Source of the DNA: Beroe forskalii
Lineage: Eukaryota; Ctenophora; Nuda; Beroida; Beroidae
Length of the DNA: 64,000 nt
Direction of reading: 5' to 3'
Assembly (NCBI GenBank): GCA_011033025.1
Contig: WFMF01000001.1
Coordinates: 673,755-737,754 of the forward strand
A model generated the notes under the pieces. That model was not told the origin of the DNA and made no database searches. It saw nothing but the letters and a program-made list of their open reading frames with translations. Below, piece after piece: positions 6,401 to 15,400 of the stretch; the stretch's first letter is position 1; each line of letters begins with the position of its first letter. The position numbers and the translations under genes were made by a program.

Positions 6401-9400
6401 TTCAATGTCAAACTCCTCTCTACATCAGTTGCCACTTTACTAGAGAGGTTCTCCAATCAAAGACAACCATACCAATACCGATACCCCATTTACCTTAATA
6501 TCGATACCTCACATACAAGATACCTTTATATAAACGGTAACCACACTTAGTGATCGGAAAATAAAGGAGATATCATTGGCCAGGGTTGAGACACAAGGTC
6601 TCCATTCCACACCTTGAAGGGTTGAGACACGAGGTCTCCATTCCACACCTTGAAGGGTTGAGACACGAGGTCTCGACTCCCAACACCTTGAGTCACAGAC
6701 ACCCATCCCTCCTAATCTTACAACGTGTCGAAACAGCCCCAGTAACTTGAACACATACTCAAGTTGTGGATAAGCTTGTAAAATATACCAGCTTTGCTCT
6801 CAGAACTCATCTAACTTGCAGTTGCACGTGTGTACAACGTACACACACGTTCGCATCCCTCCTATATACTGTACGAATTTGTCGTATCGTATAATTTGTT
6901 GTGTATATACCGATATACATCTCATCCTATCTCCTGAAGTACTTCTCAGTTCATCCTATCTTCTGAAGCACCTCTGAGACCTCCTAAACCTCTCAGTGCT
7001 GCATCTCTCAGGGTGCCACGTTTCACCCTACTTTCGGTACATCTCAGAGTAACTGTATCCTATATTTGAAGCTCCACTCAGAGTATTACCTAGACTCAGA
7101 GTACCACGTCCCATCTTGAGAAGTACCTCTCAGAGTTTCACCTCTCAGAGTACCCCATCTCATCTTGTGAAGTACCTCCCATCCTACTCTCAGCACCTCT
7201 GAGAGTCACCTATCCAATCCTTCTCTCTACCTTTCTCTCTCGGAGTGACTGAGTGATCGTATTACATCTCTCATTTTCTCTCTCAGAGACTACTTCTCTC
7301 TCAGATCTCCCCCAGTTGTTAGCTACCCCTCAGAGTACCCCTCAGAGTACCTCTATAAAGTACTCTCCTCAGATCACACCTCTCAGATCTCCTTCTTTGC
7401 TCAGCACCTCGCTCAGATATGGGTTGTGTACACTCGCGCTCTAAGACCTTCGTCACGTTCTCCTACCAGAACAGCGAGGAGGGTCTCTCTACCAACAACC
7501 GGAGTTCTACAACCCTGGGTTTTAACAACGACATGCAGCACGGTATGGATTTTACTGAGCTGCCCTCCCACAGGTCGGGGGTCAAGCGTCCGCCGGACCA
7601 CGCCTCTCCGTCCGGTTATCTCAACTCATCTCAAGTAATCGTGGAGATGAAGAGTCATCAAATGGCCCTGCATTCCAGACTTTCATCAGGGCCTGCAGGG
7701 GAGTCCATCTTCAAAACGTCGCCTAGCAACACAACCCCAGCTCTGATAGCAACAGTGTGGTTGCTAAGAAACGCAAGGAGTTCTTCTATCGGTCCAAGTC
7801 TGAGGACCAGCGGAAGTTTAACGAGATTGTGGGCGTGGCAGGCGGGGATATGAACAGTGTCAAACAAAGTCCTGGGAGAGTCCAGGCGCACTCAAAGTAC
7901 AATGATCACCACCGGTCAGATAATCAACTACAGACTGTGTCAATGCCTACAGGCACCAAATCACGGAGACAATCTTTCATATGACAGGGGTTATCATGGT
8001 GTGAAGTTATTACGTCATTATCAGGGTTTAGAATGGTGAAGTGATTACGTCATTATCAGGGTTTAGAATGGTGAAGTGATTGCGCCATTATCAGGCTTTA
8101 GAATAATGAAGTGATAACGTCATTATCAGGGTTTAGAATGGCAATAATATTCTTATCATGAGATATAATGAAGAAATTATGTCGTCATCAACATGGTTCA
8201 TCATGGTGGTATGATGACATGAATTTATTTAATATTTGTGTGAAGTATCAGAGGGGCGAAGTATTTTAATCTCTCAAGTCTCAAGTTTGACAAAACTCGG
8301 ACTAGATGTGACTTGACGAAGACTATCACATTCGGAAACAGCTGCCCGACGCACCCTAAATACCACGGATTTGGCGCAACTTAGGGGAAGCTAAGACGCA
8401 CAATCATTTTGAAGGGTGCATTAAGCGCGTGTTTACAGCGCGCTTAATGAAGTTCGGCAAGGATAAGAGATATAATGGGATTTTTGAGGTACATTTAGGG
8501 TAATTTTAGGGTGCGTCAGGCGACCGCCGTATTTTCGTGGGCCGTAGACACAAGAAATAATATATGTTTACTGGCGCAATTTTAATGACGGCGACATTAT
8601 TCGTTTTTGAATGGATTGTGATTGTTTTTCTTCTAAGAAATGTGGAAGTTTGTTAGGTCCAATCAGAAATTCTATGAAAAGCAAATTGCGCACACAGTAG
8701 AATTCGCACATTTATCAATCCCTTCATCGATCAATCCATAAGTGCACATATTATGGGTGAAGGTTACCGTTTTTTGAGGAAATTGCAACCCATTCTCAAG
8801 AAATGAACCATCTAAAGAAAGAGTATGGTGCAATAAAACCACTTTTCCTTGTGCCCTGCAATAGACATTTACCACGGAAACATTTTTCTTATAAACATTT
8901 TTTCTACTTACTCAATAACAAGTTACAACTATAATCAAGACTTCTTTAACGAATAATTTCGGTGCATAATTCAGTTAAATAACTCGTAAATAGTGCCAAC
9001 TCCTTCAATTAAACTTGGGCCTTTGGCCACGGTCTCAATGCGATCTTACACTTGAGTGTTATATGGCAGTTTGCACTTTTCACTCGTTACAAAACCACTC
9101 ACAGTTTTATCAGTCAGGCGACGGCTCGAAAAGATGGCTTCTGGGAAAATAAAGATCCTGACGTGCATGGCTACCTTGTTTATGGTCACAAACGCATACC
9201 ATTCGATGTACAACATTGGTCACGAACCAAGTTGTTGTGGTAATAAGGCATACGATGCAGCATTTAGAATGTGCTGCAATGGCACTGTTCAGTCAAAGAG
9301 TGGTCATCAACCGAGTTGCTGTGGTAAGATGGCATACGATGCGGCATTTCAAATGTGCTGCAATGGCACTGTTCAGTCAAAGAGTGGCCATCAACCGAGT

Positions 9401-12400
9401 TGTTGTGGTAATAAGGCATACGATGCAACATTTCAAATGTGCTGCAATGGCACTGTTCAGTCAAAGAGTGGTCGTCAACCAACTTGCTGTGGTAAGAAGG
9501 CATACGATGCGGCATTTCAAATGTGCTGCAATGGCACTGTTCAGTCAAAGACTGGTCTTCAACCGAGTTGCTGTGGTAAGAAGGCATACGATGCAGCATT
9601 CAGAATGTGCTGCAATGGCACTGTTCAGTCAAAGAGTGGCCATCAACCGAGTTGCTGTGGTAATAAGGCATACGATGCAGCATTCAGAATGTGCTGCAAT
9701 GGCACTGTTCAGTCAAAGAGTGGCCATCAACCGAGTTGCTGTGGTAAGAAGGCATACGATGCGGCATTTCAAATGTGCTGCAATGGCACTGTTCAGTCAA
9801 AGAGTGGCCATCAACCGAGTTGCTGTGGAAATAAGGCATACGATGCAGCATTCAGAATGTGCTGCAATGGCACTGTTCAGCCAAAGAGTGGCCATCAACC
9901 GAGTTGTTGTGGTAATAAGGCATACGATGCAACATTTCAAATGTGCTGCAATGGCACTGTTCAGTCAAAGAGTGGCCATCAACCGAGTTGCTGTGGTAAG
10001 ACGGCATACGATGCGGCATTTAAAATGTGCTGCAATGGCACTGTTTAGTCAAAGACTGGTCTGGGGGGGGTCCACCGGCCAACGGCCAACGGCCAATTGG
10101 CCGAAATTGGAAATTTTCTAGACGGTTGGCCGGTTGGCCGTTTTTCTATTTTTGATATTTACACCTCTTTAGGGGGGTCCAATCAAGAAACTCCCAGAGA
10201 GAAAGTTGCTTGTAATAGTTCTAAGAACACACCTCAGTACATTTGAAGACACTTGTTATCGAAATCACGAAAAAAATGTGGTGTTAAAGATAATTTAGCT
10301 CAAAGAACAGGATCATCCTACTTTTAAAATCTCAATAGCTTTTCACAAAGAGGCATTAAATAGTTTCCAGTGGCCAGGAAAGTATTGGAGTGCTTGAAGG
10401 AAATGTCCTTGTATGAGCGCTCCTTAGGCGCCCGTAACGTTCGTCGGTCGATCGAATGGAATTGGTCGATCGATCAACTTCATTTGATCGACTGATGTGT
10501 TTTTAATAGAAAATCTTTAAGCTAGTAGGGAAACAACTAAATATTGCTCATTTAAACACGATTCAAGTCAACACGGAGCATAAAAACACATCAGTCTATC
10601 AAATGAAGTTGATCGATCGACCAATTCCATTCGATCGACCGACGAACGTTACATGCACCTTACTTCTGATGATAGGGCTTGCCAGTAAAGACTGCAGCAC
10701 AGAGCTGACATTGTCAATAGACTATTGGAGCTAACTTTGGCTTCCCAATTTCCATATCTCTGTCAACTCCAAGTCCCTGCAACCAGTGAAATCCACTCCT
10801 GCTCCCACGTCCGGGCATTTCCACCACTAATATCACCTTACCACAACTAATATTACCTACTACAACAGCAGTGCTTCCTTCAGCTTCACCTCCTGCCTCC
10901 ATTCTTCCACCGCCCTTCTTTCCAGTACATTCCTATGCTCTTTGCCCCTTTTTAGCCCTGAAAGTGCCCCTCGCGTTAGAAGTTAGTACCTTGGCCTCAT
11001 GATTCCTCATGACCAGCCACTGCTCCTCAACTTCCTTCTGAGTCTTCTACCCAGTCTCCTCCTCAGTCTTTTCCTCCTGTTCTGTAGCCCCTTCCCAATG
11101 GATTCCTAGTCCACTCCCCAACTGACCTCATACTGACCCCCTACTGAACGCCTGCTGACCCCCTGTTGACCCTCTACTGACCCCTGGTAAACCCTAACTG
11201 AACCCTGTTGACCTCCTGTTGACCCTCTACTGACCCCTGGTGAACCCTGGAACTGACCCCCTGGTGAACCCTACTTAGCCCCTGGTGACTCCATGGTGAA
11301 CTCCTACTAAACCCCTGCCATGCTGAGCCCCTACTGACTCCCTGGTGAATTACTACTAGTACTAACCCCCTGGTGAACCCCTACAGACCCCCTGGGGACC
11401 TCCTAATGACCCCCACTAACCCCTACTGACCCCCTGATGACCCCTACTTACCCTACTGACCCCCTGGTGACCCCACTATCCCCCTGGTGACCCCCAATTG
11501 AACCCCTGGTGTCCTGCTGACCCTCTACTGACCCCCCTGGTGAATCCCTGCTGACTCCCCAGAACTCTTACTGAACCCCTGCTGACCCCATACTGAACCC
11601 CTACTGACCCCATACTGAACCCCTACTGAACCCCTGCTGACTCCCCTGGTTAACTACTATTAGTACTAACCCCTGGTGACCACTGGTGAACCCCTAAAGA
11701 CCCCTGGTGACCTCCTACTGACCCCCCACTAACCCCTACTGACCCCTGGTGACCCCTACTACCGTACTGACCCCTGGTGACCCCACTATCCCCCAGACCC
11801 CCTATATTGAACCCCCTGGTGTCCCGTCAACCCTCTACTGACCCCCTGGTGAATACGTGAATCCCTGCTGACTCCCTAGTGAACTCCTACTGACCCCATA
11901 CTGAACCCCTGCTGACCCCCTGGTGAACTCCTATACACCGTACCCCCTGCTGACCCCTGGCGAACCCCTAGTGACCCCTTGGTGACCCCCACTAACCCCT
12001 AGTCCCCTCCTGACCCCCTGGTGACCCCAACTTTCTAACTTACTTACTTGTGTTACTGTGTTAAGTGGCCAGGTAGCGCAGTGGTTAGGGCGTCTGACTT
12101 TCAATCGCGAGGTTGGTGGTTCGATTCCCGGCCTTGCCTACCGTGCTAAGGGTGAGAACTCTCACCTAAGCAGCCACACGGTTCACTCAGCCGAGCGTAC
12201 AGGAAACTGTGCGGGAGGGTTAAATGAGGAGCTGCCCATTGCAGCGAAGTCTCGGGCGACGAAAGTATGGATTACACTTCCTTAACCGTCACTGGCTTGA
12301 TTACTTGAATCCTTCGATTCCTGTCATTGGCTGTTACAGCTGTTGGAATAGAAGTAAAAACCTTCGAAATAAAAAAAAAGTTAGTTATGTTTGTCATAAC

Positions 12401-15400
12401 TAACTTAGGTACTTAATTAATAGGTGAAGCGTCATGATAAGTTCGGTGGGGGGCAGCGGGGGCAGTAGAAGGCCATTGAACTATAATCTTCCCTAGGTCA
12501 TATAAATGCATGGAGACAGTCAATAGAATCGAGTGTTTCATACATGAACAGGAAATAGTTCCAGGTGTGGAACCTGGAAGGGAATCAGGGATGAAGCAAT
12601 ATGACTAGACTATTCTGGAATTGATTTATGTGACTATAAAGCTATAAGAGAAGAAAATGACAGTAGGGATGGTCACCAATTGAACTACATGTCCTAGACC
12701 TTTAGAAACTTTCAAAGTTCTTACTTTCTTTGATTATATAAAAATGCATGGAGCTTGAGCCTTCTTGAAGCATAAGGGCAAATTTCAACTGTTTCAACGA
12801 CCTCAATTGACACATTTGACACCCCCACCAATTAAATTAGTGGGAAAATGTTGGTCATAGAGATTGTAACAACTTTTTTCTCTCACAACTTTCAACTAAA
12901 ATGCTTCTGGCAGAAACCAGGGATAAAAATGAAAAACGGCCAACCGGCCAACGGCCAATTGGCCGAAACGGCAAATTTTTTAGACGGTTGGCCGTTGGCC
13001 GGTGGACCCCCCCCCTGGTCTACAACCGAGTTGCTGTGGTAAGATGGCATACGATGCAGCATTTCAAATGTGCTGCAATGGCACTGTTCAGTCAAAGACT
13101 GTTCTACAACTTATGTAGTTGTTTTGTTTCGTGTCTATTAATTGTAACAAATCTCTTCTCAAAGCGTGGAAAACATTGGCGAGGTTCCATCAGCATTAAT
13201 TTTGAACAAATTATCAGTCATGTGATACTGCTGGTGATGCATAAAAATAAATGGAGAATATAATAATATCGAGGAAATTATTTTAAAAAGGAATGGTAGA
13301 TAAGTCACGAACCTTGTAGAAAAGAACCTCGGGGAACATCTGTATGACAGTAGGAAGCGCAAAGTTCATCTGAAATCAAGTGTCTTGAATATTATGATAA
13401 AAACTTCATTTATTTGACGGTTCAATCATTTGACGGTTCAACTTTCTGAAATTATGATGCCCCTGGAACTTCCACTTTGAAAGTTCCGACGAGCCTAAAA
13501 TTTTGAATTTTGTTGAAAATTTGAATTGGCAGGATCAAGCGTGTCTACCATTATCCGTGAAGTTTTAGGTCCGATAACTATAATCCCTAACCTGGTGGCA
13601 AGGTCGACACCATTCCGCAGTGAATATGACGATAAGGAGAGTGTGCTTGTTTTCCTTCAGGATGCCTTTGAACTCTGCCAGTGTTTTGATTGTTTTCCAG
13701 TCCTTGAGAGACACAGTGTGCTCCTGAAGAAAATAATTATTTGGGTGCAGGTTCAAAAATTATTCTATTTTTCATATCATATAATAAGTGTGAACGTGGT
13801 TCTAATATGTTTTGCAAAATTTTATTGTTTTATTTAATGGCATATCATCAATCAACATTTCATTATCATTAAACGCACGCGCAATGGAAAAGGGTGGGAT
13901 TTGAATTATGAATTCTCGAGACCCACTTGATTAGGTTTAGAAGAATCTGAGTTGGTGTTTTGGAGCTTGGATGCGGAAGGGTCTGTACTCACTTGATTAG
14001 GTTTAGAAGAATCTGAGTTGGTGTTTTGGAGCTTGGATCCGGAAGGGTCTGTACTCACTTGATTAGGTTTTGAAAATTTAGTTGTTGTTTTGGGCTTGGA
14101 TCAAGGGTCTATCATTATTGATTAGGTTTAGAAGAATCTGAGTTGGTGTTTTGGAGCTTGGATGCGGAAGGATCTGTACTCACTTGATTAGGTTTTGAAG
14201 AATCTGAGTTGTTGTTTTGGAGCTTGGATCCGGAAGGGTCCGTACTCACTTGATTAGGTTTAGAAGAATCTGAGTTGGTGTTTTGGAGCTTGGATGCGGA
14301 AGGGTCTGTACTCACTTGATTAGGTTTAGAAGAATCTGAGTTGGTGTTTTGGAGCTTGGATGCGGAAGGGTCTGTGCTCATGTCTGTACTCGATTTTTTA
14401 GCTTCTGCCTGGGGCTGGAGGCAAGTGTTAATGAGAAGTACCTACGGAATACCCGATTTTATTAAGTACATAGGTACAACCTTTACTAATGTGCTAAATG
14501 TACGTACAACACAGCCTTTCCTAAAAATCTAAAGGGCTAAAGGTACGTACCGCATTTTCCTAAATAGCTAAGGTACGTACCGCATGTACTTATCATATAC
14601 TTAGGGCGGGTTTTAACTGACGAAACGATACAACAAAGAATGGTTTTAAATCATTCATTTGAATCAATTACGTTTCACTTTAACTACACTTTATACAATT
14701 GAAGACTACTAAATTGACTATACAATTGATCTCTACAGGCACGAGTGATTCTAACCACCCTGTAAGTATGTAACAATCTTCACAAGAGCAAGGGAAACAC
14801 TACCATTTATGTGTTTGTGTCTCTGATGGTTAGCGGGTACTGAGTGCTCCTTTATCAACAATATACACACCTGGCCTGAGTTAAGGAACTGTTTATGATT
14901 TGCATGAACAATGACAGTGTTATATATAACGTTTATAAATTATCAAATTGACGCAAAAGAACCCAAATTATGTCCATAAGAAGGAAAAACCAAATGCAAT
15001 ACATTTTTTAAGGACGAAATTCGCACAATTAAGTGTCGCACAAATTTAATCTAGGACTAGCATCGTTGTAAGAATCACACGAAGAAACTGAAAGGAGGAG
15101 AAATCTCCGAGCACCACCTCACATATTTTATTATATTGACCTATAAGCGTCAAATAAAACTGTCACATTGCTGCTTCATATTGCTGCTTTTATTAAACGT
15201 TCCCAGGTGCCACGGAGTGAGGATGTGACACGGTGAGATGGTGAGCATGTGACGATAATCACATGATTTTCGAAAGCTTCAAGGATTACAAATAATTACT
15301 TCTGATTACAATTCTCTCGAATCAGTTATCTCGTTTAAACTTCAATCCCTTGTGAGCATGTGAAAAGTTTTGTCGTGGGTGGCGTGAAACCGTCATTAAC

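Follow-up and report, generated by a model that had tools for sequence, protein, structure and literature searches.

Galaxins and galaxin-like proteins of stony corals (Pfam family PF24748) are built from tandem di-cysteine repeats behind a hydrophobic N terminus, and one survey takes the motif RXRR as the mark of galaxin sensu stricto (available excerpt of PMC6824150). The calcarins of calcareous sponges are a second group of di-cysteine proteins: the available excerpt of PMC12419799 describes disulfide-joined hairpins as predicted for galaxins and calcarins alike, and states that calcarins lack repeat structures of such detail. Galaxin-like proteins are also present in non-calcifying animals (excerpts of PMC12419799 and PMC4878875). 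As for ctenophores, the available part of PMC4878875 reports no galaxin, and one published survey, in the part available, found no skeletome proteins common to Cnidaria and Ctenophora. A literature search for galaxins carrying a premature stop or a transposable element insertion had no galaxin among the matches listed.

The locus described here belongs to the ctenophore Beroe forskalii and lies in a stretch of 64,000 nucleotides (hereafter the window, to which positions refer unless a contig is named) of contig WFMF01000001.1. Its history is very probably that a DNA transposon with terminal inverted repeats (TIRs) inserted in an 11-unit galaxin-like gene, that a separate stop upstream of it leaves a 10-unit frame, and that the eleventh unit was orphaned. 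Insertions of this sort, into a tandem-repeat gene whose empty site can still be read, are well known and in themselves ordinary. What makes this place unusually informative is that a nonsense mutation and an insertion stand side by side, so that their order could be worked out.

The galaxin-like gene and its relatives

The galaxin-like gene is a single open frame on the plus strand that runs from the ATG at 9134 to a TAG at 10046–10048. Units 1 to 10, of 84 bp each, occupy 9224–10062 (plus strand), with the final base of unit 10 now at 13022, on the far side of the transposon, where the array resumes in the unchanged frame with this base followed by unit 11 (13023–13106). Together with its tail QLM and the pre-insertion stop TAG at 13116–13118, unit 11 makes up the plus-strand segment 13023–13118. 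An earlier interpretation made from the letters alone (the sequence-only reading) had already recognised the ten units and, beyond the transposon, one more that is in frame with them and ends in a tail and TAG of its own, and the frame analysis agrees with it. Further downstream, an AATAAA at 13246–13251 (plus strand) may have served the gene as its poly(A) signal before the insertion.

The 10+1 units have 28 residues apiece and contain CCG and CCNG in every one, forming regular di-cysteine tandem repeats, and the 10-unit protein matches the Pfam Galaxin_repeat profile PF24748 with 428 bits (cut-off 28; E = 4.8e-130). Its N-terminal part is short, with a hydrophobic stretch, and by eye resembles a signal peptide; the 10-unit frame would probably be translated and its product secreted. 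In its tandem di-cysteine repeats, its hydrophobic N terminus and its strong Pfam match the protein thus resembles the galaxins and galaxin-like proteins of stony corals. It differs from coral galaxin in that its units are nearly identical at 84 bp, in that the host offers no skeletal context and in that RXRR, an endoprotease motif, is absent from the translation (by eye), for which last reason the sequence is better called galaxin-related. The AlphaFold model, of low confidence (mean pLDDT 52), suggests about one hairpin per unit, and in this, as in being a di-cysteine protein, the product may resemble the calcarins; unlike these, the gene is a near-perfect tandem array. Just 5' of the ATG, positions 8945–9096 form part of a short dispersed repeat: among 46 further matches listed for the 5' flank query, 45 fall here (71–83% identity). 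The promoter or 5' leader may therefore stem from a repeat.

A PF24748 profile search of the genome gave 15 places on nine contigs. Of these places 14 exceed the cut-off, one of which does so only in combination with frame neighbours, and those on contigs other than C1, C192 and C386 are weak matches (27–42 bits). The paralog on C192 has four units and that on C386 (L027) three, the open frame of the latter being given as 140 residues in one analysis and as 110 in two others. On contig C936 (187583–253414) there are four galaxin-repeat matches, three of them within 251957–253414, which may represent a tandem gene cluster.

The sequence-only reading had proposed a candidate biomineral-matrix gene. 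Ctenophores are not known to have a mineral skeleton, the statolith apart; since this is the host, and since galaxin-like proteins also occur in animals that do not calcify, the biomineral label is unsupported. The protein could conceivably have a role in the mineral of the statolith, in connection with which lithocytes are mentioned in the available excerpt of PMC10954788. The more notable point is that a ctenophore has a galaxin-repeat family at all, which the survey of skeletome proteins would not have predicted. Because the animal builds no mineral skeleton, such a family is relevant to the question whether carbonate skeletons recruited galaxins that already existed or had them invented for the purpose. 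We tentatively suggest, as a possibility that is less likely than not on present evidence, that ctenophores possess an expanding set of secreted proteins with galaxin repeats that is their own and that either predates carbonate skeletons or is independent of them. At this locus a nonsense change would then have set a new array length and a transposon would have capped it, in a state that may still be polymorphic in the population.

The transposon copy between units 10 and 11

The inserted element spans 10063–13015 (2953 bp) and starts with G8 and ends with C9. Its TIRs, at 10063–10090 (plus strand) and 12987–13014 (minus strand), match at 28 of 28 bases, with an extra C following the right one at 13015, and the duplicated target TGGTCT flanks the element at 10057–10062 and 13016–13021 (both on the plus strand). 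A 17-base end piece, searched with up to three mismatches, occurs twice in the window, both times at the element ends, against 0.04 expected occurrences. When the flanks are joined over one TGGTCT, 69 of 72 bases match the junction of units 4 and 5; as a control, the best of 83 other registers has 18 mismatches. Terminal inverted repeats, a target duplication and many copies are all present, as in a TIR DNA transposon. That a transposon did insert between units 10 and 11 and duplicate its target is confirmed, and the pre-insertion join can be read as the sequence-only reading had claimed. The element that this reading had described, of 2952 bp with G8/C8 inverted ends, is real in its inverted ends and one base longer at the right.

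The size of the duplication was determined with sibling copies. A search of the 216-Mb genome with the element gave 363 candidates, 40 of which were scored, the window copy included; the regions of 20 of the 39 other scored copies were fetched, and 16 of these had both ends, giving a test set of 17 two-ended copies with the window copy. An exact 6-bp duplication is found in 16 of the 17, directly outside the G/C runs in 13 and after giving back one or two Cs in three; under the same rule none of 272 mismatched left-right pairs has a 6-bp match. The exception is sibling L033, with an exact duplication of 5 bp only. A duplication of 7 bp or more would also fit six of the 17 copies, the window copy among them, whereas 10 of the 17 allow at most 6 bp. 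With G8 on the left and C9 on the right, 6 and 7 bp are both possible for the window copy taken alone, and the sequence-only reading had given TGGTCT or CTGGTCT; given the 6 bp of the siblings, the element is best read as 10063–13015 and its duplication as TGGTCT.

These observations also bear on whether the two junctions are assembly errors that join separate loci, a suspicion to which the use of a single assembly gives some occasion. It is very improbable, since both flanks belong to the same galaxin array in register and carry a perfect 6-bp duplication like those of the siblings, and since, among the candidates scored, flank searches match nothing besides this locus, units of the array and short dispersed repeats. 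An empty allele was not found in the assembly among the candidates scored for the 3' flank (40 of 210) and the 5' flank (40 of 492); the assembly may be collapsed to a haploid state, so this says little. In the 3' flank, 13489–13573 is a short dispersed repeat of about 85 bp with many copies (81–87% identity).

The interior of the element is composite. At 10427–10659 lies a nested MITE-like inverted repeat of 233 bp flanked by TTA, which we take to be Harbinger-like. A C-rich minisatellite follows at 11116–12028, to which related sequence of variable length exists in several siblings. At 12064–12379 (plus strand) a SINE-like piece of tRNA origin is nested between GTTA flanks; its tail is A-rich, it contains an AATAAA at 12368, and 12067–12139 matches the Rfam tRNA family. 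Both nested insertions are missing in the three closest of the 20 fetched siblings (L031, L032 and L033). The longest stop-to-stop frame wholly within the element has 86 codons and runs across the nested SINE, and with no transposase frame in it the copy is apparently non-autonomous.

A 22-bp end piece occurs in the genome, with at most one mismatch, at 279 termini (136 forward and 143 reverse), while the same pattern read backwards, used as a control, has no occurrence. For an estimate of age the window copy was compared with the three closest siblings, with the minisatellite and all columns containing gaps excluded: in 1448 columns it has 6 private substitutions and the siblings have 7, 24 and 15, with two aligned columns fitting no single copy. 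By these counts the window copy appears young relative to its family, in relative terms and not as an absolute date.

Neither the fetched copies nor the longer spans between termini yielded a source of transposase for the family. Among the open reading frames of the fetched copies, inspected by eye, none was assigned as a transposase, and several long frames lie outside the element; each of four frames tested matched no Pfam family. The right end was not found within about 9.4 kb in three of the 20 copies (L034, L038 and L039), and in L047, left out of the duplication test, it is about 8.9 kb away and lacks its last bases. Among the termini places listed, four long TIR-to-TIR spans were noted (C88, C142, C259 and C360). 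The one on C259 (L051), read over most of its length, had no frame of more than 102 codons, and in the 3 kb read of the one on C360 the longest frame has 131 codons and is repeat-like. There are 46 MULE matches in the genome and none on these four contigs.

Terminal inverted repeats are a property of most DNA transposons. A multicopy element with a duplication of about 6 bp resembles IS3EU/GingerRoot, Dada and the MuDR range. As given in the available excerpts, IS3EU has TA..TA termini and 6-bp duplications (PMC10045372), in Dada, which inserts in small RNA genes, TIRs were not found (PMC3706591), MuDR makes target duplications of 4–10 bp (PMC10045372), and hAT, P and Merlin make duplications of about 8 bp (PMC3706591, PMC10045372). 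IS3EU was set aside since, although the 6-bp duplication fits, the family termini are runs of G and C in place of TA..TA. Dada is contradicted by the initial G run of the family and its TIRs of 28 bp, and the 17 flanks differ among themselves. Likewise, hAT, P and Merlin do not agree with the family, in which 16 of 17 copies have an exact duplication of 6 bp and 10 of 17 allow no more than that. The 6-bp duplication falls inside the range of MuDR, which is left as a candidate; a full-length relative would in that case be expected to encode a MULE transposase.

The stop in unit 10 and the order of events

The frame of the present gene ends before the transposon is reached. The codon at 10046–10048 (plus strand) is TAG in unit 10 and CAG in the other ten units, an in-frame change private to this unit of the eleven, and ends 14 bp upstream of the element. 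This TAG is sufficient for a protein of 10 units, so the transposon is no part of the open frame, and on this evidence the insertion cannot be named the cause of the truncation. The sequence-only reading, which treated the insertion as a gene disruption, is not supported in this respect; it had named transcripts ending near 10048 as something to look for, without saying that a nonsense change 5' of the insertion accounts for the stop at that place.

In the preferred reading, a non-autonomous TIR transposon mobilised in trans by a transposase would have entered an 11-unit galaxin-like gene between units 10 and 11, by way of a staggered cut of 6 bp at TGGTCT, and a separate C>T change would have produced a stop 14 bp 5' of the insertion site and hence a 10-unit protein. 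The transposon would now lie in 3' untranslated or downstream sequence, with unit 11 as an orphan.

For the order of the two changes, the case that the stop came first, so that the element hit sequence that was already non-coding and disrupted nothing, has about an even chance of being right. The galaxin-like paralogs on C192 and C386 end with CCNGRIC-stop, and the gene here with CCNGTV-stop; because the last unit of these paralogs stops at nearly the same position as here, the shortened 10-unit protein has a normal-looking end and could plausibly be a working form. An insertion beyond the coding sequence would also be more easily tolerated, and for this reason we lean slightly towards this order. 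Against it speaks unit 11, whose frame is still open up to a stop of its own and which shows just one private change, as expected of a sequence not long unconstrained or given too little time to decay. A single private change is at the same time too few for a test of the order.

The reverse order, to which we give a little less than an even chance, would have the insertion break the gene and let the frame run into the element, with the stop in unit 10 arising later, either neutrally or as a change that removed an element-coded tail. It is consistent with the frame past the stop, open from 10049 for 65 codons that lie mostly within the element, and with the two private changes in unit 10, K>T and Q>stop, both of which alter the protein. 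However, nothing places the stop after the insertion, and the stop alone accounts for the end of the protein.

The nonsense change, the transposon in the 3' region and the nested insertions could instead be marks of a dying gene, with the intact-looking paralogs of four and three units as the functional galaxins. That the locus is such a pseudogene is unlikely, as 9134–10048 has no frameshift and no earlier stop.

Other observations in the window and the genome

The sole COX1 match in the genome is on contig C1134 (L053), which has 13,339 bases and looks mitochondrial. By eye, its cox1 protein diverges strongly, and it requires TGA as Trp; AGA stands at positions of conserved Arg. ARAGORN, run with the bacterial code, found no tRNA in 2.8 kb of this contig. 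The sole ATP6 profile match, to positions 135–217 of 217, is on contig C176 and there is none on C1134, in a search that could miss a very divergent mitochondrial copy. According to the available excerpt of PMC6991124, ctenophore mitochondrial genomes are fast-evolving, lack tRNAs, ATP6 and ATP8, and use the same code as the cox1 of C1134, and ATP6 is nuclear in two ctenophore species and present in the transcriptome of a third. The divergent cox1, the small contig and the ATP6 match elsewhere fit a ctenophore host.

Two further tandem arrays occur in the window. One, at 13924–14380, consists of seven copies of a 66-bp unit and overlaps a minus-strand open frame (14115–14441) with a repeated unit rich in Ser, Lys and Asn. 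The other is a 44-bp minisatellite at 893–2096, with about 27 copies and a higher-order period of 320 bp.
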